A stretch of 42,377 bases of DNA from an uncultured Pelagibacteraceae bacterium (GTDB lineage Bacteria; Pseudomonadota; Alphaproteobacteria; Pelagibacterales; Pelagibacteraceae), in assembly GCA_902635665.1 (NCBI GenBank), contig CACPOX010000010.1, forward strand, positions 1 through 42,377, written 5' to 3'. How positions within the stretch are numbered: position 1 is the stretch's first letter; every line of letters begins with the position of its first letter. A program made the translations under genes and the position numbers. A model generated the notes under the pieces. It made no database searches, had not been told where the DNA came from, and saw only the letters and a program-made list of their open reading frames with translations. This document shows, in pieces, positions 2,134 to 14,117 of the stretch.

Positions 2134-2523
2134 ATGAATAAAATTATAGTAGAAGTTTCAGTTGGTGAGCTTTTAGACAAAATTTCAATCTTAGAAATAA
2201 AAAAAGAAAAAATTAAAGATCCTGATAAACTAAAATTCATATCGAATGAACATTCGATTCTTAAAGATCAATTGGTAAAAAATGTTAAATCTGACGAAAA
2301 ATTAGAAAAACTATTCCAAGATTTAAAAGAGATTAATGCCAAGTTGTGGGTTATAGAAGATGACAAAAGAGATTGTGAAAAAAATAAGGACTTTGGTGAT
2401 AAATTTATAAAGTTATCTAGAGATGTTCATTTTTTAAATGATGACAGAGCAAAAATTAAATTGGAAATTAATAATCACACTGGATCAAGCATTAAAGAAA
2501 TTAAAGAATATACTAGCTACTAA
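2134..2523 (+). CDS. Small DUF6165-like protein
   Basis: A 129-residue, charged, probably all-helical soluble protein opening with IIVEVSVGELLDKISILEIKKEKI. This opening and the overall length match my recollection of the DUF6165 family, whose genes often sit beside LPS glycosyltransferases, as here (32 bases from the divergent GT9 start). It has no signal peptide, no membrane segment and no catalytic motif that I recognise. A role in surface-sugar assembly is inferred from neighbours only. The last 11 bases overlap the end of the convergent dioxygenase gene. Confidence 0.6.
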   Translation: MNKIIVEVSVGELLDKISILEIKKEKIKDPDKLKFISNEHSILKDQLVKNVKSDEKLEKLFQDLKEINAKLWVIEDDKRDCEKNKDFGDKFIKLSRDVHFLNDDRAKIKLEINNHTGSSIKEIKEYTSY

Positions 2524-3301
2524 AAACTTTAGGAAACCAATCTTCTCTCATCAAATCTCCCGTTTTTAAATTGATCCCATCAAATGGAGGTGAAGTTGGC
2601 CCTTCTCTATCAATATACTTAATATCATCTCCTATAAATCGCATTGAAAATGCCCTTCGAGATTTAGAGGTATTGTTTCCTGTTGAACCATGTACAGTTT
2701 TAAAATTAAATAAAACAGTATCTCCTAAACTTAGTTCTGGAATTAAAATATTTTTTTCAAATTCTTTTGATGAAGGTAAATCCATAAAAGAACTGTCGTC
2801 CTCATACCAAGATTGGTTATTTGACCATTTTGTGGGTCTAATCAACTTTGACCATTTGTGAGAGCCTAAAATTAATTTAATATTATTTTTCTGATCAACT
2901 TCATCTAATGGAATCCAAAAACTTCCAGTATCTTTACCATCAACACAATAATAAGGCATATCTTGATGCCAGGGTGTTTCTTTATGAGTACCTGGATCCT
3001 TTATAAAAATGTGTTCATGAAAAATTTGAATAGATTTAGAATTAGTTGCTTCTGCAACTATTTGAGCTGCAGGAGAATTATATAAACAATCCTTAAATTC
3101 TTCTATTCTTTCCCAATTACAATAATCCTCAAAAAAACTACCATTATCATCAGTTACATTTTCTCTTCCATGTTTACTTGGATTATCTAAAACTTTTTGA
3201 AATCCTGTTCTAAGTGGCTCAATCCACTCTTTAAATACATCCTTAATTATTATTAAACCATCACTTTGATAATCATTAATTTGTTTCTCTGATAAAAACA
3301 T
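2513..3301 (-). CDS. Phytanoyl-CoA dioxygenase (PhyH) family hydroxylase
   Basis: A 262-residue Fe(II)/2-oxoglutarate-dependent dioxygenase. The iron-binding triad is visible as H112-x-D114 (WHQDMPYY) and H204 (TVHGSTGNN), with R215/R216 (SRRAF) placed to bind 2-oxoglutarate. The family includes ectoine hydroxylase, proline hydroxylases and phytanoyl-CoA hydroxylase, so the substrate is open. The gene starts 2 bases after the last permease gene of the amino acid importer upstream on the same strand. That suggests it hydroxylates or degrades the imported compound, which is inference. No signal peptide, so it should be cytoplasmic. Confidence 0.85.
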   Translation of the reverse strand: MFLSEKQINDYQSDGLIIIKDVFKEWIEPLRTGFQKVLDNPSKHGRENVTDDNGSFFEDYCNWERIEEFKDCLYNSPAAQIVAEATNSKSIQIFHEHIFIKDPGTHKETPWHQDMPYYCVDGKDTGSFWIPLDEVDQKNNIKLILGSHKWSKLIRPTKWSNNQSWYEDDSSFMDLPSSKEFEKNILIPELSLGDTVLFNFKTVHGSTGNNTSKSRRAFSMRFIGDDIKYIDREGPTSPPFDGINLKTGDLMREDWFPKVFSS

Positions 3302-3303
3302 TT

Positions 3304-3981
3304 TTATTGTTGAAAGCTATACTTTTTCTCTAAATATTTAATTAGATTGTGAATTAAAAAAGTCATAAATAAATAAATAGATCCAGCTATAATAAAAACC
3401 TCTAAAGGTCTAAATGTAGTAGAAATTATTTTTTGAGCTACACCAGTAATATCCATTAATGTAACCGTGCTTGCTAATGATGTGCCTTTTAACATTAAAA
3501 TAATTTCATTCCCGTAAGCAGGAAGTGATTGTCTAATAGCAATTGGAATTTGAATTTTATAAAATATCTTACTATTTGATATGCCTAAACTTTTTCCAGC
3601 CTCAATTACTCCTGGCTTAATAGTTTGAAAAGCAGATCTTAAAATTTCAGACGTATAAGCACCTGTATTTAAAGCAAAAGCAATAATTGCACACCAATAA
3701 GGTTCTTTTAATATGGACCATAAAAATGTAGTTCTCAACCACTCAATATTACCTAGTCCAAAATAAATTATAAAGATTTGTACTAAAAGAGGCGTTCCTC
3801 TAAAAATATAAGAATATCCATATGCAAACTTATTAACAAAAACATTTTTATTTATTCTTAAAATTGCAAAAAATAAACCAAGAAATATTCCTATTAATAA
3901 AGAGGCAGAAAGTAACTTTAAAGTAACAAAAGTAGCGTTAATTAATTTTGGAAAACTAGAGATCATTAAATCAATATCCAT
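3304..3981 (-). CDS. Amino acid ABC transporter permease (HisM/OccM type)
   Basis: A 225-residue inner-membrane permease of the polar amino acid (His/Glu/Arg/opine) family, with about five membrane segments. The EAA loop is seen at GVIEAGKSLGISNSKIFYKIQIPIA, residues about 123-147, which docks the ATPase. FRGTPLLVQIFI near residues 59-70 is the typical family motif. The start directly abuts the previous permease gene, so the two are co-transcribed and should form a heterodimer. The gene is followed after 2 bases by the PhyH hydroxylase. No ATP-binding subunit is present anywhere in this operon. Confidence 0.9.
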   Translation of the reverse strand: MDIDLMISSFPKLINATFVTLKLLSASLLIGIFLGLFFAILRINKNVFVNKFAYGYSYIFRGTPLLVQIFIIYFGLGNIEWLRTTFLWSILKEPYWCAIIAFALNTGAYTSEILRSAFQTIKPGVIEAGKSLGISNSKIFYKIQIPIAIRQSLPAYGNEIILMLKGTSLASTVTLMDITGVAQKIISTTFRPLEVFIIAGSIYLFMTFLIHNLIKYLEKKYSFQQ

Positions 3982-4674
3982 TTAAAATCCCTTTCTATAT
4001 TTTAATTCGAGTTTGTTTATCAGTCTCATACTTAAAAATGTTAACATCAAAAAAATTAGAGCTGCAATTGAGTAAAAAAACAATGGATCTCTAGTGGCGC
4101 CTGCTGCAATACGTGACTGTCTCATTATTTCAACTAAACCTGTAACGGAAATAAGTGCAGTGTCTTTTAAAGTTATTTGCCAAACATTACTTAAGTTTGG
4201 GATGGCCAATCTTAACATTTGAGGTAAAATTATTTTATAAAATTGTATGAATTTACTTAATCCAAGAACTTTTCCAGCCTCAAACTGACCTTTGTCTATT
4301 GATTTAATTGCACCTCTGAACACTTCTGTTGAATAGGCGCCAGAAATAATACCAATGGCCATTGAACCTGTAATAAAAGCATTTATCTCTATGTATTCAT
4401 AATAACCAAAAATAGATGCAACGTACATCAATGCACCACTACTTCCAAAATAGAAAAGATAAATTACTAAAAGTTCGGGGACACCACGAACTACTGTGGT
4501 ATAAAAATTTCCAATTAAGTTTAGTGATTTATATTTAGATAATTTGAGTGGTGTAAATATTATAGAGAAAATAAAGCCAATAAGCATTGCTGAAATAGAT
4601 ACAGCAATTGTCATCAAGGTTGCGTAAAATAACTCGTCACCCCAACCTGTTTTACCAAATGCTAGAAGTTCCAT
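3982..4674 (-). CDS. Amino acid ABC transporter permease (HisQ/OccQ type)
   Basis: A 230-residue polar amino acid permease partnering the next gene. It shows VVRGVPELLVIYLFYFG (about residues 62-78) and an EAA loop at GQFEAGKVLGLSKFIQFYKIILP. The order binding protein - HisQ-type - HisM-type is the usual one. A perfect 10-bp inverted repeat ends only 6 bases before this ATG and would occupy the ribosome-binding zone, so translation may depend on opening that hairpin. Together with the neighbouring permease it should form the membrane channel of the importer. Confidence 0.9.
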   Translation of the reverse strand: MELLAFGKTGWGDELFYATLMTIAVSISAMLIGFIFSIIFTPLKLSKYKSLNLIGNFYTTVVRGVPELLVIYLFYFGSSGALMYVASIFGYYEYIEINAFITGSMAIGIISGAYSTEVFRGAIKSIDKGQFEAGKVLGLSKFIQFYKIILPQMLRLAIPNLSNVWQITLKDTALISVTGLVEIMRQSRIAAGATRDPLFFYSIAALIFLMLTFLSMRLINKLELKYRKGF

Positions 4675-4680
4675 ATAGAT

Positions 4681-4705
4681 TGGCGACTATATATTATAGT
4701 CGCCA
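4681..4705 (-). promoter_or_regulatory. Intercistronic hairpin between binding protein and permease genes
   Basis: TGGCGACTAT (4681-4690) and ATAGTCGCCA (4696-4705) are a perfect 10-bp inverted repeat with a 5-base loop and GC-rich outer arms, standing out in this AT-rich DNA. It starts 13 bases after the binding-protein stop and ends 6 bases before the permease start. No T-run follows, so it looks like an mRNA-stabilising or translation-limiting hairpin rather than a terminator. Similar structures follow the other three binding-protein genes in this window. Confidence 0.75.
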
Positions 4706-4718
4706 GATCTGAAATGAA

Positions 4719-5570
4719 TTACATAGAAGCGTCAAAACCAAAGTGCTTAACAGCAAGTTTACTAATAATTCCTTGTTTTCTAGCTTTATTAATTGCTTTA
4801 TTGAAGTCTTTTAAAATTTTGGCATCTCTTTTTCCAATAGCACTATCACTAGCTTGTCTGATACCAACACCTACACCATTACCAAATGCACCACCTGAAA
4901 AAGTTGGTCCAACTAATACAACTGGCTTACCTGATTTGTCTGCATAATCTGTAAATGCTACTGCTGCAGCTAAAGCAACATCACATCTTCCAGAGGTTAA
5001 ATCTAGGTTAACTTCATCTTGAGTTTTATAAGTTCTTACATTTACGCTTCCTACATCACCTGATTCTAAAAAGTTTTGGTGAATTGTTCCTGTTTGAGTA
5101 CAAACAGTTTTGCCAGCAAGTGCCCCCGTTAATGTTTTAAGAGCTTTTTTAACATCTGAACCACCTAGTGATAAATTAATACCCTCAGGTGTATCCATGC
5201 CCTCTAAACTTGAACCTTTCATTACTGCAAGAGAAGCTACTTCATCAGCATAACCTTGTGAAAATGTAATTGTTTTTTGTCTTTCAGCAGTAATGGACAT
5301 TCCAGCCATTATTGCATCAAACTTCCTCATTACTAGAGCTGGAATCATTCCATCCCAATCTTGTTCTACAATTGTGCACTCATACTTCATAATTTTGCAA
5401 AGCTCTTGAGCAAGCTCAACCTCAAACCCAATAAGATTACCTGAAGCATCTTTTGAATTCCATGGAGGATAAGCACCTTCAGTTCCAATTTTTATTTTTT
5501 CAGCAGAAACGTTTCCGATAATAAATAAAGAAGCAAGAACTGTTAAAATAGTTTTTTTAAATATATTCAT
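4719..5570 (-). CDS. Amino acid/opine ABC transporter substrate-binding protein
   Basis: A 283-residue periplasmic protein with a clear signal peptide (about residues 1-23, ending NVSAEK). The body begins IKIGTEGAYPPWN, followed by GFEVELAQELC and FDAIMAGMSIT, the pattern of the lysine-arginine-ornithine / histidine / octopine-nopaline group. It is somewhat longer than HisJ because of an extra stretch around residues 108-135. The start is set by a strong Shine-Dalgarno site (AAGGAG, 6 bases before the ATG). It heads an operon with two permeases and a PhyH hydroxylase. The ligand is probably a basic or modified amino acid; the exact one is unknown. Confidence 0.88.
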   Translation of the reverse strand: MNIFKKTILTVLASLFIIGNVSAEKIKIGTEGAYPPWNSKDASGNLIGFEVELAQELCKIMKYECTIVEQDWDGMIPALVMRKFDAIMAGMSITAERQKTITFSQGYADEVASLAVMKGSSLEGMDTPEGINLSLGGSDVKKALKTLTGALAGKTVCTQTGTIHQNFLESGDVGSVNVRTYKTQDEVNLDLTSGRCDVALAAAVAFTDYADKSGKPVVLVGPTFSGGAFGNGVGVGIRQASDSAIGKRDAKILKDFNKAINKARKQGIISKLAVKHFGFDASM

Positions 5571-5629: not shown

Positions 5630-6670
5630 TTAATGGTTTATTGAAGATGAAAAATTCCAAGAACAATCAAAACTCGGTATATAAACTCTTGATAATTTTG
5701 CATTTCCAAAATTTTTATTGAAAACATTTAACCAATTTTCAACCTGTTGTGGTTTTTTATCCTGACTTCCAACTTGAGCTGTAATCACTCCTTTTGGTTT
5801 TAGAATTCTTACCAATGAATCCATATTTTTTGCTGCTAAATCTATACAAAACTGATCATCATTTAGATCAACAAAAATATGATCATAAGTATCGTCTCCT
5901 ATTGATTTTATACTCTCAAATGCATCACCCCAAACACATTTAACAGAATTTTTTTCAGTTGCTTTCTTTCCAATATCTCCAAGGTGTTTATTGCAAACAT
6001 CTACAACTTCTGGGTCTAATTCGTACCAATCTAAAAATTTAAAATTTTTTGAAATACATTCTCTTGCTACTCCACCATCTCCACCACCGATAATAGCAGC
6101 TCTTTCATTGTCTTGGTTCAAATCAAGTCCAGATCCAACAAAAGTTGAGCTATATAAATGTTCGTCTGTTGCTGCAACTTGGATTTCACCATCGATAAAT
6201 AAAGATTTTCCAAATTGTTCTAAATCTAAAATTTCAATATGTTGACCAACTTTAGATTTAAAATCCTCTAATACATCATTTACAACATAAGACTTTTGTA
6301 GTCCAGGTGAGCTATAAATATCGTAATACAAAGATTTTGTATCTCTATTAAATTCTTTTTTAACTATTCTTTTATGTTCAAATTCTTTTTTTATAATATC
6401 AATCGCAACTGTAGGACTTATTTTTCCACAAGTAAAAAAATCAAAACTAATAATTCCTTTTTCTGGAAAAGTATGAAAACTAATATGACTTTCGGCCAAT
6501 AATGCTAATATTGTAAATCCTTGAGGTTCAAATTTATATTTTGATATATTTAGAATTGTTACTTTTGCGGCTTTTGCAATTTCATGAATTACTTTTTCAA
6601 ATACAGAAGGATCGTATTCTTTTGTTGTGCCGATAATGTCTAGAGTTATATGCTCTCCAACTTTAGTCAT
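5630..6670 (-). CDS. speD-speE fusion: Fused S-adenosylmethionine decarboxylase - spermidine/spermine synthase
   Basis: A 346-residue two-domain protein. Residues 1-110 are a SpeD domain: E60/S61 in ESHISFHTFPE is the self-cleavage pair that would yield the pyruvoyl group, with H66 and C81 (FFTCGK). These fit Thermotoga SpeD E62/S63, H68, C83 with a constant offset of 2. Residues about 115-346 are an aminopropyltransferase: GGGDGG at 195-200 (D198) and FVDL with D268. The whole layout and stretches such as QFGKSLFIDGEIQVA resemble animal spermine synthase, which also has an N-terminal SpeD-like domain, there inactive. It likely makes decarboxylated AdoMet and a polyamine, releasing MTA. It lies 3 bases after the aldolase-like gene. 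T53 replaces the Ser55 expected from Thermotoga. Confidence 0.85.
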   Translation of the reverse strand: MTKVGEHITLDIIGTTKEYDPSVFEKVIHEIAKAAKVTILNISKYKFEPQGFTILALLAESHISFHTFPEKGIISFDFFTCGKISPTVAIDIIKKEFEHKRIVKKEFNRDTKSLYYDIYSSPGLQKSYVVNDVLEDFKSKVGQHIEILDLEQFGKSLFIDGEIQVAATDEHLYSSTFVGSGLDLNQDNERAAIIGGGDGGVARECISKNFKFLDWYELDPEVVDVCNKHLGDIGKKATEKNSVKCVWGDAFESIKSIGDDTYDHIFVDLNDDQFCIDLAAKNMDSLVRILKPKGVITAQVGSQDKKPQQVENWLNVFNKNFGNAKLSRVYIPSFDCSWNFSSSINH

Positions 6671-6673
6671 TAA

Positions 6674-7315
6674 TTATCCTCTTTTATAATTCTTTGCCTT
6701 GGATAAAACTTTTTTCATTTCTTTAACTGAAAGAATCTTTGGCTTACCCAATTTAAGGCTCGTTATATACTGAAGTGATAGATTTTCAACCTCTTCGGCT
6801 AACTCAAAAGCCTTTGATAAATTTGTTTCAAATGCAATCTGTCCGTGATTTGAAATTAAACAAGCTTTACGACCTTTTAATGCTTTCAAAATATTCTTTG
6901 ATAATTCTCTAGTTCCAAAAGTTGCATATTTTGCACATTTGATGTCATGACCTCCTGCCAAAGCTACCATATAATGAAATGCCGGAATCCCTCTCTTGTG
7001 AGTAGAAACTGCTGTTGCATTTGTTGAATGAGCATGAATAATCGCCTTAGCCTCTTTTTTGTTCTTGTAAACATCTTGATGAAATTGCCATTCTGAGGAT
7101 GGAATACCTTTTTTTTTATCAAATCTTCCTTCTGAGGAAACAAAAACAATATCTTTATTTTTTAAGGAAGAATATTTTTTTCCGGATGGTGTAATTAAAA
7201 AACCATCCTTATATCTTACAGATATATTTCCAGACCTAAGAGCAGATAACTTTGTGCTATTAAGCATTTTTGAATATTTGATTATTTCAGCCTTTATTTT
7301 GCTCATTAAAAACAT
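6674..7315 (-). CDS. Class II aldolase, FucA-like; candidate methylthioribulose-1-phosphate aldolase
   Basis: A 213-residue class II aldolase. The zinc ligands and the catalytic acid match E. coli FucA with a constant offset of 2: E75, H94, H96, H157 and Y115. The segment AGGHDIKCAKYATFGTREL is very FucA-like. It forms an operon with the downstream SpeD-SpeE fusion (3 bases apart), and mtnP, mtnA and apt lie nearby. In the known DHAP shunt, a FucA-like aldolase (Ald2) splits methylthioribulose-1-phosphate into DHAP and methylthioacetaldehyde. That role is inferred here from context. Alternatives are MtnB dehydratase (same fold) or true fuculose-phosphate aldolase. ATG codons at 7315 and 7306 are both possible starts. 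Confidence 0.8.
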   Translation of the reverse strand: MFLMSKIKAEIIKYSKMLNSTKLSALRSGNISVRYKDGFLITPSGKKYSSLKNKDIVFVSSEGRFDKKKGIPSSEWQFHQDVYKNKKEAKAIIHAHSTNATAVSTHKRGIPAFHYMVALAGGHDIKCAKYATFGTRELSKNILKALKGRKACLISNHGQIAFETNLSKAFELAEEVENLSLQYITSLKLGKPKILSVKEMKKVLSKAKNYKRG

Positions 7316-7359
7316 CTTGATTTTAACTTAATTTAAGATGAGACTATAGAAAATTTAAA

Positions 7360-8721
7360 ATGGCAGATACAATAAAATATTTCTTAGAAGAGAGCAAAAT
7401 GCCAAAGACTTGGTATAATATTGCTGCAGATTTACCAAAACCTATGGAGCCTCCGCTGCATCCAGGTACTTTAAAGCCGATTGGACCTGATGATCTAGCG
7501 CCTTTGTTTCCGATGGCATTGATTGGCCAAGAAGTTTCTCAGGATAGAGAAATAGAAATACCTGAACCAGTAAGAGAAATTTATAAACAATGGAGACCAT
7601 CACCATTATACAGAGCAAGAAAATTGGAAAAACATTTAGATACACCAGCAAAAATTTATTACAAATACGAGGGCGTTAGTCCTTCTGGTAGCCACAAACC
7701 AAATACTGCAGTGGCTCAAGCATTTTACAATAAAGAAGAAGGTACAAAAAAAATTACTACTGAAACAGGCGCGGGACAATGGGGAACATCTCTTGCGTTT
7801 GCATGTAAACTGTTTGGAATTGAGCTAGATGTTTATATGGTAAAAGTTAGTTTTGAACAAAAACCATATAGAAAATTAGTAATGCAAACTTATGGAGCAA
7901 GATGTGTCGCAAGTCCATCTGACGAGACAGATAGTGGTAAAGCAATTTTAGCAAAAGATCCTAACAATACAGGAAGTTTAGGAATAGCAATTTCTGAAGC
8001 TGTTGAAATGGCTGCTAAAAATCCTGATACAAAGTATGCTTTAGGGAGTGTGTTAAACCATGTTTTAATGCACCAAACAATTGTAGGGAACGAAGCTTTG
8101 CTTCAAATGGAAATGGCTAACGATTATCCAGATATTTTAGTTGGTTGTACAGGTGGTGGAAGTAATTTTTCAGGATTAGTTAATCCTTTTTTAGGAAAAA
8201 ACTTTAGAGAAGGAAAAAAAACAAGAGTAATAGCATGTGAGCCAAAGTCATGCCCAACGCTAACTGAAGGAAAATATGTTTATGATTTTGGTGATACAGG
8301 AAAATTAACACCTTTAGTAAAAATGCATACTTTAGGATCTCAATTTATTCCACCTGCAACCCACTCTGGTGGCTTAAGATATCATGGTATGGCTCCGCTT
8401 GTTAGTCACTTAAAAGAAATTAATGCAATAGAAGCAAAAGCTTATGGTCAAAAGGAGTGTTTTGAAGCAGGTGTAAATTTTGCAAGAACTGAAGGAATAG
8501 TTCCAGCACCTGAAGCGACACATGCTGTTAAAGGAGCTATAGATGCAGCATTAGAATGCAAAAAAAATGGTGAGTCTAAATCAATATTATTTAATTTATG
8601 TGGTCATGGTCATTTTGATATGAAAGCATATGGAGATTACTTCGAAGGCAGCCTTGCAGAAGATAAGTTTGATAAAGGAAGTATGGACAAAGCACTAGAA
8701 GACCTTCCAAAAATTGCCTAA
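7360..8721 (+). CDS. trpB2: TrpB2-type tryptophan synthase beta-like enzyme
   Basis: A 453-residue PLP enzyme of the long TrpB2 class, which works without a tight TrpA partner. K113 in SGSHKPN is the Schiff-base lysine, and CTGGGSNFSG (about residues 263-272) binds the phosphate of PLP. The N-terminal extension with DLPKPMEPPLHPGT and the DDLAPLFP segment is typical of TrpB2 and absent from TrpB1. The reaction would be indole plus serine to tryptophan, or a related beta-replacement. No other trp gene is in the window. It is followed after 8 bases by the DUF1015-like gene and is divergent from the aldolase/SpeD-SpeE operon, with only 44 bases between. Confidence 0.9.
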   Translation: MADTIKYFLEESKMPKTWYNIAADLPKPMEPPLHPGTLKPIGPDDLAPLFPMALIGQEVSQDREIEIPEPVREIYKQWRPSPLYRARKLEKHLDTPAKIYYKYEGVSPSGSHKPNTAVAQAFYNKEEGTKKITTETGAGQWGTSLAFACKLFGIELDVYMVKVSFEQKPYRKLVMQTYGARCVASPSDETDSGKAILAKDPNNTGSLGIAISEAVEMAAKNPDTKYALGSVLNHVLMHQTIVGNEALLQMEMANDYPDILVGCTGGGSNFSGLVNPFLGKNFREGKKTRVIACEPKSCPTLTEGKYVYDFGDTGKLTPLVKMHTLGSQFIPPATHSGGLRYHGMAPLVSHLKEINAIEAKAYGQKECFEAGVNFARTEGIVPAPEATHAVKGAIDAALECKKNGESKSILFNLCGHGHFDMKAYGDYFEGSLAEDKFDKGSMDKALEDLPKIA

Positions 8722-8729
8722 TTAATAAT

Positions 8730-9815
8730 TTGAGTCTAATAAATCCATTTAAAGCTTTACGGCCAATCCAGAAACTAGCTCGTAGAATTTCAACTCCAAA
8801 TCCAAAATATTTTAATAGTTTAAAATCCTATCCGAAATTTGGTTATTTAAAAATTTTAACTAGCAAAAACCTTATTCAATCAAAAAAATATTTTGTAAAT
8901 ATGAAGAATAAAAAACTGGTAACTAAAGAAAGTAAAGATTGTTATTACGTTTACAAAATATCTGATAAAAACCATCAACAAATTGGAATACTGGGTAAAA
9001 TAGATTTAAACAATTATGACAACAAAAATATTTTAGGGCATGAAGAAACTTTTAAAAATAGAGTTTTTGAAAGAAAGAAACAAATATTAAATATTTCAAC
9101 ACAAGTAGGTCCAATTTATACGGCTTATAAATACAAAAAATACCTTCAAGATTTCTTAATTAAAGTTACAAAATCAAAGCCAATTTATTCATTTAAATCA
9201 TTAGACAAATTTAATCATCAGGTATGGATTGTTGATAAAGAAAACAATCTAAAAAATTTTATTAAAAAAATTAATAAAATATATATTTGTGATGGTCATC
9301 ATAGAATACAAGGAATGCTTAAAAGTAATAAAAAAATATCCCCCATGATTATTGCTTTTCCTCATAATCAAATAAAAATTCTAGATTATAATAGAGTATT
9401 AAAAAGTAATTTAAGTAGCGAAAAAATTATCAATATTATCAGTAAAAATTTTAAAATTAAAAAAATAAAGAATAACTCAAAAAATTTAAAAAAAGGTTTT
9501 TTAGAAATGTATATGAGTAATCAATGGTATTTACTTAAACTAATCAAAAAAAATAAAAAATTAGATGTCACTATTCTTCATGAGAATATTATTAGTAAAA
9601 TTAAAGCTACTAAAATTGATTTTATTTCAGGGATTAATGGTTCAAATCGTCTTAAAAAATTAGTAAATTCAAAAAAGTTTAATATAGCTTTTAAACTTAG
9701 CCCTACAAATATTTCAAGTGTTATGAGTATTGCAGATAAAAAAAGGTTTATGCCAGCAAAATCAACCTGGTTTCATCCTAAACCTTTAGATGGGTTAATT
9801 TGTTCTGAATTATAA
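8730..9815 (+). CDS. DUF1015-like protein (diverged)
   Basis: A 361-residue basic protein with ICDGHHRIQGM near residues 189-199, the DGHHR signature of the DUF1015 family, and KALRPIQKLA near the start, where the family usually has a R/P-rich opening. It is shorter and much richer in lysine and asparagine than typical members. The start is a TTG at 8730, 8 bases after the trpB2 stop, suggesting coupled expression. Family members are often linked to serine or glycine metabolism genes, but no biochemical function is established as far as I know. The end overlaps the convergent asparaginase gene by 6 bases. Confidence 0.65.
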   Translation: MSLINPFKALRPIQKLARRISTPNPKYFNSLKSYPKFGYLKILTSKNLIQSKKYFVNMKNKKLVTKESKDCYYVYKISDKNHQQIGILGKIDLNNYDNKNILGHEETFKNRVFERKKQILNISTQVGPIYTAYKYKKYLQDFLIKVTKSKPIYSFKSLDKFNHQVWIVDKENNLKNFIKKINKIYICDGHHRIQGMLKSNKKISPMIIAFPHNQIKILDYNRVLKSNLSSEKIINIISKNFKIKKIKNNSKNLKKGFLEMYMSNQWYLLKLIKKNKKLDVTILHENIISKIKATKIDFISGINGSNRLKKLVNSKKFNIAFKLSPTNISSVMSIADKKRFMPAKSTWFHPKPLDGLICSEL

Positions 9816-10787
9816 CACAAATTTCATTTTCCCTATTTTTTGACCCACAGAATTTGTTACTTCGCTAGATTTAATTTTTGCTAATTCATTTTCATCTATA
9901 ATATTTAATTCAGAAATTAATCCCGCTATTGCAATTTCAGCTGCCCTTGCTGCTCCATCTAAAATTTTAACTACTAATGCAGATTTAATTTCAGGTATTA
10001 GTGCCAAAAATACACCTTCAGCACCATTTTTAAAGAATATTTTTTTTTTAGAAAGTTTTGTTAAGATGCAATTAGCGCTATTTGTACCTCCAGTTATTTC
10101 TGGAAAGTTAACACATGAGTTAAAAATTTTTTTTGCTATATTTATATTTTCATTTAATATTTTATCATCTGTTAATCGTGACGCTGCTAATGCAAATTTT
10201 TTTAAAGGCATTAAAGGATTAGGTAAAGTACAACCGTCTATACCAATATTTTTTATTTTAAAGTCTGATAAATTTTCAATTAATTGAATTAAATCCTTTT
10301 GTAACGGATGTGTTTTTTCGTGATAATTTTCTAAAGTTAAGTTTTTATGTTTACATACAGCAAGGTGTCCACAATGTTTCCCTGAACAATTATGATAAAT
10401 CCTTCTTTTTTTTTCATTTTCTAATTTTACTTTAAATTTATCCTCTAAATTCCAAGGCCAATCATATCCACATGAAAGATTTTCTTCTTTAATATTAAAT
10501 TTTTTTAACCAACTAGAAATAATTTCCTGATGAAATTTTTCTGCATGATGTGATGCTGTAGTAATTGCAATTTGTTCTTCACTGAGACTCATAGAATTTG
10601 CTACACCATCCTTATAAAGATTTAGAGTTTGGATTGGTTTTAATGCTGATCTTGGGTAAATATTTAAGTCTGAATTACCCCATTCTTTTAAAATATTTCC
10701 TGATGAATTAATTAATACTGCTACACCTTGATGAGAACTTTCTATTTCACCACTTCTAGTAACTTCGACCATTTTTAAAGATTCCAT
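9810..10787 (-). CDS. Asparaginase of the Rhizobium etli type II family
   Basis: A 325-residue protein of the AnsII/asparaginase_II family, unrelated to E. coli asparaginases. Active-site and metal residues known from R. etli ReAV appear in order: S47-x-x-K50 (SALK), S79 (TTASHH), C134-x-x-K137 (NCSGKHCG) and C186 (DGCTLP), nearly all offset by 1 from ReAV numbering. It would hydrolyse L-asparagine to aspartate and ammonia. It is the last gene of the mtnP-hydrolase-mtnA operon, 4 bases after mtnA; the metabolic link is unclear. ATG codons at 10787 or 10772 could both serve as start. Confidence 0.85.
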   Translation of the reverse strand: MESLKMVEVTRSGEIESSHQGVAVLINSSGNILKEWGNSDLNIYPRSALKPIQTLNLYKDGVANSMSLSEEQIAITTASHHAEKFHQEIISSWLKKFNIKEENLSCGYDWPWNLEDKFKVKLENEKKRRIYHNCSGKHCGHLAVCKHKNLTLENYHEKTHPLQKDLIQLIENLSDFKIKNIGIDGCTLPNPLMPLKKFALAASRLTDDKILNENINIAKKIFNSCVNFPEITGGTNSANCILTKLSKKKIFFKNGAEGVFLALIPEIKSALVVKILDGAARAAEIAIAGLISELNIIDENELAKIKSSEVTNSVGQKIGKMKFVL

Positions 10788-10791
10788 ATAT

Positions 10792-11865
10792 CTACTTATT
10801 AAATAATTTTTTTAAAGCTTCGTTTGATGCTTCACAAATCCCTTTTTCTGTAATTAAATTAGTAACATATTTTGCTGGCGTCACATCAAATGCTAAATTC
10901 ATTGCCTTGCTTTTCTTGGGATATATCAAAACTTTCTTAACTTGATTGTTTTCATCAACACCCACAACATGAGATAATTCCTCTGAATTTCTCTCTTCTA
11001 TTGGAATATCTTTTGCATCTTTAATGTTCCAATCTATTGTAGAGCTTGGAAGAGTAACATAAAATGGAACATTATTATCATGAGCAGATAGTGCTTTAAG
11101 ATAAGTTCCAATTTTATTACACACATCTCCATTAGATAAGGTTCTGTCAGTTCCTACAATACACATATCAACCTCACCTCGCTGCATCAGAATTCCACCT
11201 GTATTATCAGCAATGATTGTATTCGGAACTTCTTCTTCATTTAGCTCATATGAAGTTAAATTTGCACCTTGATTTCTGGGTCTTGTTTCATCCACCCACA
11301 CATGAACCGGAATTCCTTTTTTATGAGCATGATAAATGGGTGAAGTTGCTGTTCCCCAATTAATAGTTGCTAACCATCCAGCATTACAATGAGTTAATAT
11401 GTTAACTGTATCTTTTTTTTTGTTGAAAATTTCTTCAATTATTTTTACTCCATTAATGCCAATATTTTTACAGAATTTTTCGTCTTCGTCGCATATTTCT
11501 TTAGCTTCTTTTAAAGCTATATCTAAAATTTGATCACTATTAATACCTGATAATTTTTTCATCATACGATCTACTGCCCATTTTAAATTAATTGCAGTAG
11601 GTCTTGATTGAATTAATTTTTCAGCACTTTTCTTTAAAAATTGTGAATCATTATTTTCTTGTACTGCTAAAACTATACCATATGCTGCCGTTCCTCCTAT
11701 TAAAGGAGCTCCTCTTACTTCCATTGCTTTAATAGCATTAATTGCATCCTTTACTGTCTTTAATTCTTTAATTACAAATTGATGAGGAAGTTTGGTTTGA
11801 TTAATTATTTTAACAACATTTCCCTCGTACCATATTGTTCGATATTCTTTTCCTTCTATTTTCAT
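10792..11865 (-). CDS. mtnA: S-methyl-5-thioribose-1-phosphate isomerase
   Basis: A 357-residue aldose-ketose isomerase of the eIF2B-like fold, converting methylthioribose-1-phosphate to methylthioribulose-1-phosphate. C160 (ILTHCNAGWLAT) and D240 (VGTDRTLSNGD) fall at the same numbers as the catalytic pair of Bacillus subtilis MtnA. RGAPLIGGTAAYG (51-63) and VDETRPRNQGANLT (191-204) are further family signatures that separate MtnA from eIF2B subunits. It sits 6 bases after the hydrolase gene in the mtnP operon. No mtnB, mtnC or mtnD is seen in the window, so the fate of its product probably depends on the aldolase-like gene near 7 kb. Confidence 0.95.
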   Translation of the reverse strand: MKIEGKEYRTIWYEGNVVKIINQTKLPHQFVIKELKTVKDAINAIKAMEVRGAPLIGGTAAYGIVLAVQENNDSQFLKKSAEKLIQSRPTAINLKWAVDRMMKKLSGINSDQILDIALKEAKEICDEDEKFCKNIGINGVKIIEEIFNKKKDTVNILTHCNAGWLATINWGTATSPIYHAHKKGIPVHVWVDETRPRNQGANLTSYELNEEEVPNTIIADNTGGILMQRGEVDMCIVGTDRTLSNGDVCNKIGTYLKALSAHDNNVPFYVTLPSSTIDWNIKDAKDIPIEERNSEELSHVVGVDENNQVKKVLIYPKKSKAMNLAFDVTPAKYVTNLITEKGICEASNEALKKLFNK

Positions 11866-11871
11866 TAGAGA

Positions 11872-12678
11872 TTATCCCTGCTCTTCAATATATTTTTTTA
11901 TAATTTTTTTTGTTTCGTTAATTCTGCAATCTTTTCTATACGTATTGTGACCCTCACCGCATTTGTAAGCTATAATTTTAACTGTATCTGGTGATTTATC
12001 CTTAAGAAACATAAGTTCTTTTGATCTATTAAATTTATCATCCTCATATGCAAAAATAAGAGCTTTAATCAAATCTGCTTCTTGTATCTGCTTAACTTGC
12101 TTAGGTCTAATTTCCTTTCTCCATACTGGATATTTATTAATTTCATGTCTTGGTCCACAACATGCTGGGGCAAAAACAATTGCTGAATTAAATTTTTTCC
12201 CTACTTTTGGCATCAACATAAGCGAAGACCAGGCTCCTGCAGAAACTCCTGAAAGAAAAATATTTTTAGGCTTGATGCCAATATCTAATAATTGATCTAA
12301 AACATTTTCAATTTCATTAACTCTTTTTCCAATATAAGACCCAGATTTATTTCCATCAGTTGCTTTAGAACATAAATAATAAAAGAAAATATTATCAGTT
12401 TCAGTTAAGCTTAATAAGGAATTTGGAATGGCGTTATATTTTTTTTTACATTTTTCTTTTTTTTGAGGCCTAGTTGTTCCATGAGAAAATATTATAATTT
12501 TTATATTTTCTGAATTATTTAAGCTTATATTGGGTGTTTTTCCTTTATAAGATTTAGAAATTGGTTGTAAATTAAATTTATTCTTCTCTTTATCAATAAC
12601 AAATCCACTTAGGTTTTTTGAATAAGAATAAGAATTAAATAAAAAGAAAATTAAAATTGTATAAATTATTTTTTTCAT
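11872..12678 (-). CDS. Secreted alpha/beta-hydrolase-like protein
   Basis: A 268-residue protein with an N-terminal signal peptide (MKKIIYTILIFFLFNSYSYS). The mature part has an oxyanion-type IIFSHGTT (about residues 62-69), a nucleophile elbow GVSAG with S146, and a late histidine in CGEGHN, all in the order of an alpha/beta-hydrolase triad. Several cysteines (C77, C103 and a late CRI) could form disulfides, in keeping with a periplasmic place. The substrate is unknown. It is wedged inside the MTA operon: its start overlaps the mtnP end by 4 bases and mtnA follows after 6 bases, so it is translationally coupled to mtnP. An exported enzyme between two cytoplasmic salvage enzymes is unexpected. 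Confidence 0.65.
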   Translation of the reverse strand: MKKIIYTILIFFLFNSYSYSKNLSGFVIDKEKNKFNLQPISKSYKGKTPNISLNNSENIKIIIFSHGTTRPQKKEKCKKKYNAIPNSLLSLTETDNIFFYYLCSKATDGNKSGSYIGKRVNEIENVLDQLLDIGIKPKNIFLSGVSAGAWSSLMLMPKVGKKFNSAIVFAPACCGPRHEINKYPVWRKEIRPKQVKQIQEADLIKALIFAYEDDKFNRSKELMFLKDKSPDTVKIIAYKCGEGHNTYRKDCRINETKKIIKKYIEEQG

Positions 12679-13547
12679 TTATTTAAAACTCTTCCAGCTA
12701 TATTTTTAAGTTTATCTATTGTTTTTTTAGTTCTTTTTTCTGGAGCTGTTATTATTGCTACATCTAAACAGTTATTTGTTGGATCATTTGGGTCAATATG
12801 ATCTTCAAAATTATCTATTAAATTTTTAATCATAATTTTTGCTTTTTCTGCATTACCTAATAAAACCTTAATTACTTTTTGAACATCAACATTTTCGTGA
12901 TCTGGATGCCAACAATCAAAATCGGTAACCATAGAAACCGATGCGTATCTAATTTCAGCCTCTCTTGCTAATTTTGCCTCTGGCATATTGGTCATCCCAA
13001 TAACATCTGCTTTCCATGATCTGTATAAATTAGATTCTGCTAACGTAGAAAATTGAGGTCCCTCCATTACAACGTATGTTCCATTTCTTTGATAATCTAT
13101 ACTTGATTTTTTAATTGCATCTTCGCACGCATTCATCAGTCCATTTGATGTTGGATGGGCCATTGATACATGAGCAACAATTTCATCATTAAAAAAAGTT
13201 TTTACTCTTGCAAAAGTTCTATCAATAAATTGGTCAACAATTACAAATTTTCCAGGAGGTAGATCTTCTTTTAAAGAACCCACAGCTGAAACTGATACAA
13301 TATCACTTACACCTAATTGTTTTAGTGCATCTATGTTAGCTCTAAAATTAATATTAGATGGAGAAATAAAGTGACCTCTTCCATGTCTTGGTAAGAAGTA
13401 AACCTCTTTTTTGTTATAATTAGTTTTTAAAATTTGATCTGAAGGTTTTCCCCATGGGGTTTGTAAATTAACTAATTCTCTATTTTTAAATTCCTCAACA
13501 TCATAAAGACCACTACCACCTATAATTGCTAATTTATTTGTTGTCAT
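12675..13547 (-). CDS. mtnP: S-methyl-5'-thioadenosine phosphorylase
   Basis: A 290-residue purine nucleoside phosphorylase of the human MTAP type. IIGGSGLYD (8-16), FLPRHGRGHFISPSNINFRAN, VVMEGPQFST and MVTDFDCWHPDHENVDV are all MTAP signatures; the last separates MTAP from inosine/guanosine phosphorylases. It splits MTA with phosphate into adenine and methylthioribose-1-phosphate, so no MTR kinase is needed. It is the first gene of the mtnP-hydrolase-mtnA-asparaginase operon. It is divergent from apt, whose product would recycle the released adenine. Confidence 0.95.
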   Translation of the reverse strand: MTTNKLAIIGGSGLYDVEEFKNRELVNLQTPWGKPSDQILKTNYNKKEVYFLPRHGRGHFISPSNINFRANIDALKQLGVSDIVSVSAVGSLKEDLPPGKFVIVDQFIDRTFARVKTFFNDEIVAHVSMAHPTSNGLMNACEDAIKKSSIDYQRNGTYVVMEGPQFSTLAESNLYRSWKADVIGMTNMPEAKLAREAEIRYASVSMVTDFDCWHPDHENVDVQKVIKVLLGNAEKAKIMIKNLIDNFEDHIDPNDPTNNCLDVAIITAPEKRTKKTIDKLKNIAGRVLNK

Positions 13548-13589
13548 AGTTAAAAATTTATTTATTTATACTTTTATAATTAAAGTCTT

Positions 13590-14117
13590 ATGAATTTAAA
13601 AGATTATATTCGATCTATTCCAGATTACCCTAAAGAAGGTATTTTATTTAGAGATATCACAACTCTAATTAAAGATGAAAACGCTTTCAATGAAACTATT
13701 AATCAGATAGTTGAAAGATCAAAAAAATATAATTTCACTAAAATTGCAGCAATAGAGTCTAGAGGATTTGTTTTTGCCTCTGCTGTTTCATATCTATTAA
13801 AAAAACCATTCATCATGTTGAGAAAAAAAAATAAACTTCCTGCAGAAGTTCATTCCATTGATTTTGAGTTAGAATACGGAACAGCAACTATAGAGGTTCA
13901 TAAAGATTCGATAAATAAAGACGATAATGTGCTAGTTATAGATGATTTAATAGCTACAGGAGGAACTGCGGAGGCTGCAGCTAAATTAATTGAGATCTCT
14001 AAAGGAAATGTTGCGGCATTTATATTTGTTATAAATTTATTTGATTTAAACGGTTCTGATAATTTGGTCAAAAAAGGTTATAATGTTGAAAATTTAATTG
14101 AATTTCCAGGACATTAA
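13590..14117 (+). CDS. apt: Adenine phosphoribosyltransferase
   Basis: A 175-residue type I phosphoribosyltransferase. IRSIPDYPKEGILFRDIT at the N-terminus is the Apt hood signature, and VLVIDDLIATGGTA (about residues 112-125) is the PRPP-binding loop. It converts adenine plus PRPP to AMP. Divergent from mtnP with 42 bases between, it fits as the adenine-recovery step of MTA salvage. It is followed closely by a methyltransferase gene of the surface-sugar block, which is probably unrelated in function. Confidence 0.95.
   Translation: MNLKDYIRSIPDYPKEGILFRDITTLIKDENAFNETINQIVERSKKYNFTKIAAIESRGFVFASAVSYLLKKPFIMLRKKNKLPAEVHSIDFELEYGTATIEVHKDSINKDDNVLVIDDLIATGGTAEAAAKLIEISKGNVAAFIFVINLFDLNGSDNLVKKGYNVENLIEFPGH

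Follow-up and report, generated by a model that had tools for sequence, protein, structure and literature searches.

The stretch of DNA analysed here (the window) comprises 42,377 nucleotides of an uncultured Pelagibacteraceae bacterium (SAR11) and lies on contig CACPOX010000010.1 of GenBank assembly GCA_902635665.1, a genome of 1.10 Mb in 37 contigs that is 85% complete. Our subject is a set of genes at positions 5630 to 14117 that would convert 5'-methylthioadenosine (MTA), a by-product of polyamine synthesis, to dihydroxyacetone phosphate (DHAP). Four of them are read from the minus strand: mtnP for MTA phosphorylase (12675..13547; TIGR01694, 308.2 bits with a cut-off of 274.85; NF006492, 441.5 with 437), mtnA for 5-methylthioribose-1-phosphate isomerase (10792..11865; TIGR00512, 418.3 bits with 279), a gene for an Ald2-like class II aldolase (6674..7315; Pfam Aldolase_II, 160.3 bits with 22.2) and speDE, which encodes an S-adenosylmethionine decarboxylase fused to an aminopropyltransferase (5630..6670; TIGR03330, 97.9 with 75.65; Spermine_synth, 83 with 22.9). 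With the SpeE model TIGR00417 the fused SpeDE protein scores 94.7 bits, under the cut-off of 249.55. On the plus strand, divergent from mtnP, lies apt for adenine phosphoribosyltransferase (13590..14117; TIGR01090, 201.5 with 185.85). The sequence-only reading had placed all these products within 8.5 kb and the aldolase in the operon of the MTA producer; open reading frames and family models confirm the former, and the latter is borne out by a gap of 3 nt between the aldolase gene and speDE. The set resembles the DHAP shunt, whose MtnP-MtnA-Ald2 route has been established experimentally in Rhodopseudomonas palustris (PMC5893883).

Gene spacing was compared over 95 SAR11 loci, based on BLAST gene boundaries and including 18 regions mostly picked for lacking Ald2. 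The commonest layout among the relatives is a single operon mtnP-mtnA-ald-speDE with apt divergent, usually followed by an amino-acid ATP-binding cassette (ABC) transporter. The aldolase gene and speDE are at most 60 bp apart in 72 of the 75 loci that show both on one strand, and the clustering is therefore not due to chance. The same distance is kept between mtnA and the aldolase gene in 52 of 76 loci and between mtnP and mtnA in 50 of 86. Where both apt and mtnP are visible, apt is divergent and within 200 bp of mtnP in 80 of 85 cases.

Co-occurrence was analysed in 147 Pelagibacterales genomes and 385 genomes of the class, which are samples from order and class. A separate search of genome contigs with the aldolase gave 66 loci, 64 with Pelagibacter-type names, one from an unclassified proteobacterial metagenome-assembled genome (L051) and one from Prochlorococcus (L066); the nearest relatives that have names are SAR11. 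Among the 147 genomes mtnA is matched in 80 (77 over the cut-off), mtnP in 77 and the aldolase (at least 60% identity) in 64. Another 16 genomes carry a different protein in which an aldolase of only distant relationship is joined to a dehydrogenase, in the manner of RhaEW (hereafter the fusion; for example L131 10189-12222 and L141 10192-12216). All 16 have mtnA and none has Ald2. When either aldolase type is counted, 79 genomes have both aldolase and mtnA, one has an aldolase alone, one has mtnA alone and 66 have neither; the genome with an aldolase alone (G036) has its contig edge at the start of the locus. Seen from the 80 genomes with mtnA, Ald2 is present in 63, the fusion in 16, both in none and neither in one (G144). 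Fisher tests on these counts treat the genomes as independent although they are not. The replacement of one aldolase gene by another beside mtnA is the decisive evidence for reading the locus as a DHAP shunt.

Other known routes for MTA were looked for in the same 147 genomes. MtnD is found over its cut-off in none of them (one weak match of 21.8 bits in G007) and neither is MtnC, for which 56 genomes yield weak matches of 18 to 24.5 bits that we read as other phosphatases. Together with an MtnB score below the cut-off in the own genome, this leads us to reject the standard methionine salvage pathway. The kinase version of the route is rejected as well: MtnK passes its cut-off in 0 of 147 genomes, with weak matches in 80 that reach at most 36.4 bits against 275. 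The MTA-isoprenoid shunt, for which a RuBisCO-like protein is expected, is likewise rejected: at E 0.001 the model PF00016 finds nothing in all 147 genomes. The sequence-only reading had noted that mtnB, mtnC and mtnD do not appear; this agrees with our results, since neither these three nor mtnK are recognised among the scanned window genes or pass the cut-off in the own genome at its 85% completeness.

The association extends beyond the order. Among the best-ranked relatives of the aldolase in the 385 class genomes, mtnA or mtnP lies within about 1.5 kb in 23 of 25 loci (L078 and L083-L106; L078 belongs to a genome outside the order, G336). For the best-ranked relatives of the fusion in the class, linkage to mtnA or mtnP is seen in 19 of 30 loci. 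A survey of larger regions, which shares genomes with these two surveys, gives 14 of 20 for the fusion and 25 of 28 for Ald2-type loci (counting L125, which has neither gene). Six distant homologues of the fusion (28-32% identity) lack mtnA and mtnP in the regions obtained and are possibly true RhaEW. In the class sample the aldolase (E < 1e-40) occurs in 110 genomes and the fusion (E < 1e-100) in 69, with only 4 having both against 19.7 expected. Given this avoidance and the mtn linkage of each type, the shunt seems to employ one or the other of these two distantly related aldolases far outside SAR11 too. The Prochlorococcus locus, from a single-cell genome, has a class II aldolase that is 47% identical (L066 9986-10651) and no mtn genes found in its 20-kb locus; this aldolase groups with those of sugar operons.

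Summarizing, the genes very probably encode a DHAP shunt for polyamine-derived MTA. This reading is supported by the operon, the co-occurrence with mtnA, the replacement of the aldolase, the lack of recognisable alternatives and the precedent in R. palustris. The match to the shunt proposed by the sequence-only reading is thereby upheld, in particular by the co-occurrence, the second aldolase and the mtn-linked relatives outside the order. In the proposed route SpeDE would produce MTA, which MtnP would convert to adenine and 5-methylthioribose-1-phosphate; Apt would return the freed adenine to AMP. MtnA would turn 5-methylthioribose-1-phosphate into 5-methylthioribulose-1-phosphate, and from this the Ald2-like aldolase would form 2-(methylthio)acetaldehyde and DHAP, of which the latter would enter central carbon metabolism. 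Probably 5'-deoxyadenosine from radical S-adenosylmethionine (SAM) enzymes would follow the same route to DHAP and acetaldehyde. We infer the substrate of the aldolase, the direction of flux, the fate of the aldehyde and any recovery of sulfur or release of a volatile.

To our knowledge RhaEW, an aldolase joined to an NAD-dependent lactaldehyde dehydrogenase, is the nearest characterised relative of the fusion, and both have the same domain layout. The SAR11 protein differs in that it stays under the cut-off of the RhaD_aldol-ADH model (TIGR02632, 442.0 against 567.75) and is located in mtnA loci, whereas RhaEW is always found in rha loci (PMC3870299). It does pass NF006192, a family of unspecified function (905.6 against 639). 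In RhaEW aldol cleavage is coupled to NAD-dependent oxidation, and the enzyme is inactive with NADH (PMC3870299). The analogy suggests that the fusion likewise joins cleavage to oxidation, with 2-(methylthio)acetate as the expected product. An alignment of 63 fusions (some genomes appear twice) shows no variation in the HGGGN and YxxxK motifs, and among the six commonest variants considered for each of the other motifs the metal ligands and the signature of short-chain dehydrogenases are retained. As to position, 11 of the regions obtained have the fusion gene between mtnA and speDE, where it is read in the direction opposite to mtnA. It adjoins speDE at about 9 kb from mtnA in G088, adjoins speDE on another contig in G121, adjoins mtnA at a contig end in G100 and closes an apt-mtnP-mtnA operon in G010 and G083. 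Neighbours missing in G036, G070, G100, G109, G114 and G117 coincide with contig edges. In one second-family locus an agmatine-deiminase-like gene (L141 12244-13383; 164 bits, under the cut-off of 381.8) follows the mtnP-mtnA-fusion operon, a possible link to polyamines.

A third state was found in six genomes that have speDE and lack mtnP, mtnA and aldolase. All six (L236-L241) carry a gene of 175-178 amino acids between apt and speDE, for example at L237 8253-8780. Both copies that were scanned belong to the PNP_UDP_1 superfamily. The gene product scores 57.3 with the Pfam model (cut-off 25.1) and remains under the cut-off of the MTA/S-adenosylhomocysteine (SAH) nucleosidase model TIGR01704 (47.8 against 73.8). 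The top Protein Data Bank (PDB) matches of the L237 protein are MTA/SAH nucleosidases, though the protein itself is below the family cut-offs. The gene was not found at E 1e-5 in any other locus examined. In a survey of 52 genomes chosen by hand from the 147, 33 of the 34 with speDE carry Ald2, the fusion or this nucleosidase-like gene; the one that does not is G109, whose mtnP lies on a short, broken contig. Among the 18 without speDE, four have mtnA (G144, G010, G083 and G100). On a tree of 53 SpeDE rows (34 with Ald2, being 33 chosen loci and the window, 13 with the fusion and 6 with the nucleosidase) the three states require 13 changes, the minimum possible being 2, and the nucleosidase label clusters no more strongly than in shuffles (500/500). 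It appears from this count that disposal modules were swapped again and again at a single site, provided that the count is not raised by recombination of speDE itself.

The identity of the aldolase itself deserves a closer look, as the catalytic residues are identical in Ald2 and in L-fuculose-1-phosphate aldolase (FucA). E73, H92, H94, H155, Y113 and Y209 (FucA numbering) are all present in the SAR11 protein; the first four we take to be metal ligands, and the two tyrosines presumably serve in catalysis. The presence of the FucA zinc ligands and catalytic tyrosine, as asserted before from the sequence, is thereby verified. The AlphaFold model (18 sequences, mean pLDDT 82, weak at 115-122 and at the C-terminus) matches the folds of FucA and of DrdA from Bacillus thuringiensis (6btd/6btg; TM 0.84, 33-34% identity). 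Identities to five MTA-linked aldolases are 43-52%. In the tree the SAR11 aldolase clusters with aldolases of the class that stand beside mtnA or mtnP; E. coli FucA, E. coli Ald2, three sugar-operon aldolases and the Prochlorococcus one are found elsewhere, with other MTA-linked sequences beyond the root. The reference Ald2 of Rhodospirillum rubrum or R. palustris is absent from this comparison. Neither sequence identity nor hidden Markov model scores alone separate FucA from Ald2, and the tree favours the Ald2 side without proving it. Consequently, it is the genomic context rather than the sequence that carries the assignment as shunt aldolase. The two E. coli enzymes are 58% identical to each other (Ald2 at L177 40370-41011, FucA at L146 2542-3189), and E. 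coli Ald2 seems to have come from a FucA-like enzyme in a separate lineage. Because of this identity and its grouping with FucA, a shunt aldolase may have evolved on more than one occasion.

Several points weigh against a DHAP shunt at this locus. The aldolase shares more with E. coli FucA (46% identity) than with E. coli Ald2 (41%), the latter groups with FucA in the tree, and the approximately unbiased (AU) test that includes row L083 does not reject a grouping of SAR11 with FucA (p-AU 0.153). Two AU tests that left out this row, which nests in the SAR11 group, gave p values of 0.026 and 0.041; we rely on the repeat with L083. Of what a tree with Ald2 and FucA was hoped to tell, the grouping with MTA-linked aldolases thus stands and the exclusion of FucA does not. 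In addition, G144 has mtnP and mtnA and neither aldolase type, and three second-family genomes (G010, G083 and G100) combine mtnA and the fusion with no detectable speDE; in G100, where the contig is short, mtnP is not seen either. Finally, calls of absence depend on family cut-offs below which matches do exist for MtnC (56/147) and MtnK (80/147), and the MtnB model was searched in the own genome alone. Nonetheless, it is highly improbable that the protein is a true FucA which sits in the operon by accident: FucA provides its best structural and PDB sequence matches (46% identity) and is not strictly excluded by the tree, but the aldolase occurs where mtnA does and gives way to a second aldolase type in some genomes, scores under the FucA cut-offs (TIGR01086, 201.8 against 400.25; NF005984, 221.2 against 264) and has mtnA or mtnP as a neighbour in relatives from beyond the order. 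Moreover, according to the available part of a genome paper on a SAR11 isolate, no fucose or fuculose genes are annotated there (PMC6018831). We give just as little credence to a divergent MtnB dehydratase that would act in standard methionine salvage with the later genes unrecognised. Both enzymes are of one superfamily and MtnB can show aldolase side activity (PMC8102628), but the aldolase, the sole match to the MtnB model in the own genome, reaches only 65.9 bits against a cut-off of 137.05, and MtnC and MtnD pass their cut-offs in none of the 147 genomes.

Two further explanations leave the enzymes in place and concern their main use. The route might chiefly dispose of 5'-deoxyadenosine from radical SAM enzymes in a DrdA-like manner, with MTA as a side substrate. 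The structural match to DrdA would fit this, as would the three second-family genomes, and the E. coli DHAP-shunt enzymes take both substrates (PMC10986504). We consider it unlikely, as the MTA producer lies inside the operon, a disposal gene set accompanies speDE in all but one of the 34 genomes that have it, and nine of the ten first-family genomes without speDE in the chosen set are also without mtnA; it overlaps with the shunt for MTA, and the probabilities attached to the two are not exclusive. Since they have mtnA and the fusion and no detectable speDE, the second-family genomes do suggest other feeds, for example 5'-deoxyadenosine or imported MTA. A little less unlikely is that the locus chiefly recovers adenine while the sulfur of the sugar part is excreted, which for the sulfur part is compatible with the DHAP shunt. 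The divergent apt beside mtnP in nearly all loci and the single nucleosidase-like gene that holds the place in six genomes speak for it, but it leaves the retention of mtnA together with an aldolase in 79 genomes unexplained.

The remaining genes of the window contribute less to the argument. Its operon is broken up by four genes and is uninterrupted in many relatives. Three of them form an insertion between the aldolase gene and mtnA (7360..10787: trpB2 (+), DUF1015 (+) and asparaginase II (-)); insertions of varying content are found at this spot in relatives, which marks a variable site. The fourth is an alpha/beta-hydrolase-like gene between mtnP and mtnA (11872..12678, minus strand; Abhydrolase_2, 21.5 bits, below the cut-off of 23), whose presence differs between relatives. 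Downstream of speDE follow the permease, permease and binding protein of an amino-acid type ABC transporter (3304..5570, minus strand). It holds this position even without shunt genes (L236-L240) and is probably not part of the shunt. An Rfam scan of the window at the gathering threshold for a SAM riboswitch returned one tRNA only. A PhyH-type Fe(II)/2-oxoglutarate dioxygenase gene (2513..3301, minus strand; PF05721, 92.5 bits) may, speculatively, be an accessory. It accompanies the operon in two positions, as in the window and as in L063, L132, L136, L140 and L144: over the 95 SAR11 loci it follows the transporter in 47, lies between mtnP and mtnA in 5 and is not seen in 43 (some loci end early). 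In L140, the locus of G144, it lies between mtnP and mtnA with a 4-bp overlap with mtnP; a sulfatase-like gene comes after mtnA, and speDE is not detectable in that genome. As a general partner of the shunt PhyH found no support, being near the operon in 1 of 47 regions outside SAR11 (L198).

Comparison with known systems shows the closest likeness to the shunt of R. rubrum and R. palustris, which uses the same three enzymes in the MtnP version and operates aerobically in R. palustris (PMC5893883). SAR11 differs in having SpeDE in the operon, no RuBisCO-like second route and a streamlined marine genome. In R. palustris 2-(methylthio)acetaldehyde is converted to 2-(methylthio)ethanol and then to methanethiol by unknown aerobic enzymes, and about 6.5% of the bacteria in KEGG, mostly terrestrial, have homologues of all three enzymes (PMC5893883). 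Extraintestinal pathogenic E. coli (ExPEC) shares the isomerase and aldolase steps through mtnK-mtnA-ald2, a cluster we saw in S88, but employs a nucleosidase and MtnK (PMC10986504), and its Ald2 clusters with E. coli FucA instead of the SAR11 aldolase. DrdA, alike in fold, belongs to a kinase-dependent 5-deoxyribose pathway and prefers Mn (PMC6079011). As to the sea, Prochlorococcus exudes MTA (PMC11698098), and a fused SAR11 SpeE has been described with MTA shown only as a by-product (PMC8437039). The available parts of five DHAP-shunt papers (PMC10986504, PMC12632272, PMC5893883, PMC8102628 and PMC6302742) contain no description of the shunt in SAR11. Our search, which did not extend to subscription papers such as the original Ald2 work, found no paper that reports the shunt from SAR11 or connects the fusion with MTA metabolism.

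Putting these elements together, we tentatively propose, as a possibility short of probable, that SAR11 has an exchangeable MTA-disposal cassette between apt and speDE, filled by Ald2, the fusion or the nucleosidase, and that the fusion adds a new, oxidative branch to the DHAP shunt, widely used in Alphaproteobacteria, in which one enzyme would yield DHAP and 2-(methylthio)acetate. In the weakest part of this proposal the PhyH dioxygenase that accompanies the operon in other SAR11 might hydroxylate the carbon beside the sulfur and free methanethiol, the step for which the aerobic enzyme of R. palustris is unknown. A testable function is thereby suggested for NF006192, the 'bifunctional aldolase/short-chain dehydrogenase' family. 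With three disposal modules apparently swapped repeatedly next to a single MTA producer, the locus amounts to a natural experiment on how the disposal of by-products evolves. SAR11 bacteria are among the ocean's most numerous cells and require reduced sulfur. If the route is active, each turnover of their SpeDE would lead to a two-carbon methylthio compound and not to methionine. Strains would then differ in what they produce (a methylthio-aldehyde or alcohol, methylthioacetate, or methylthioribose), and together these would form an unrecognised source of marine organic sulfur.

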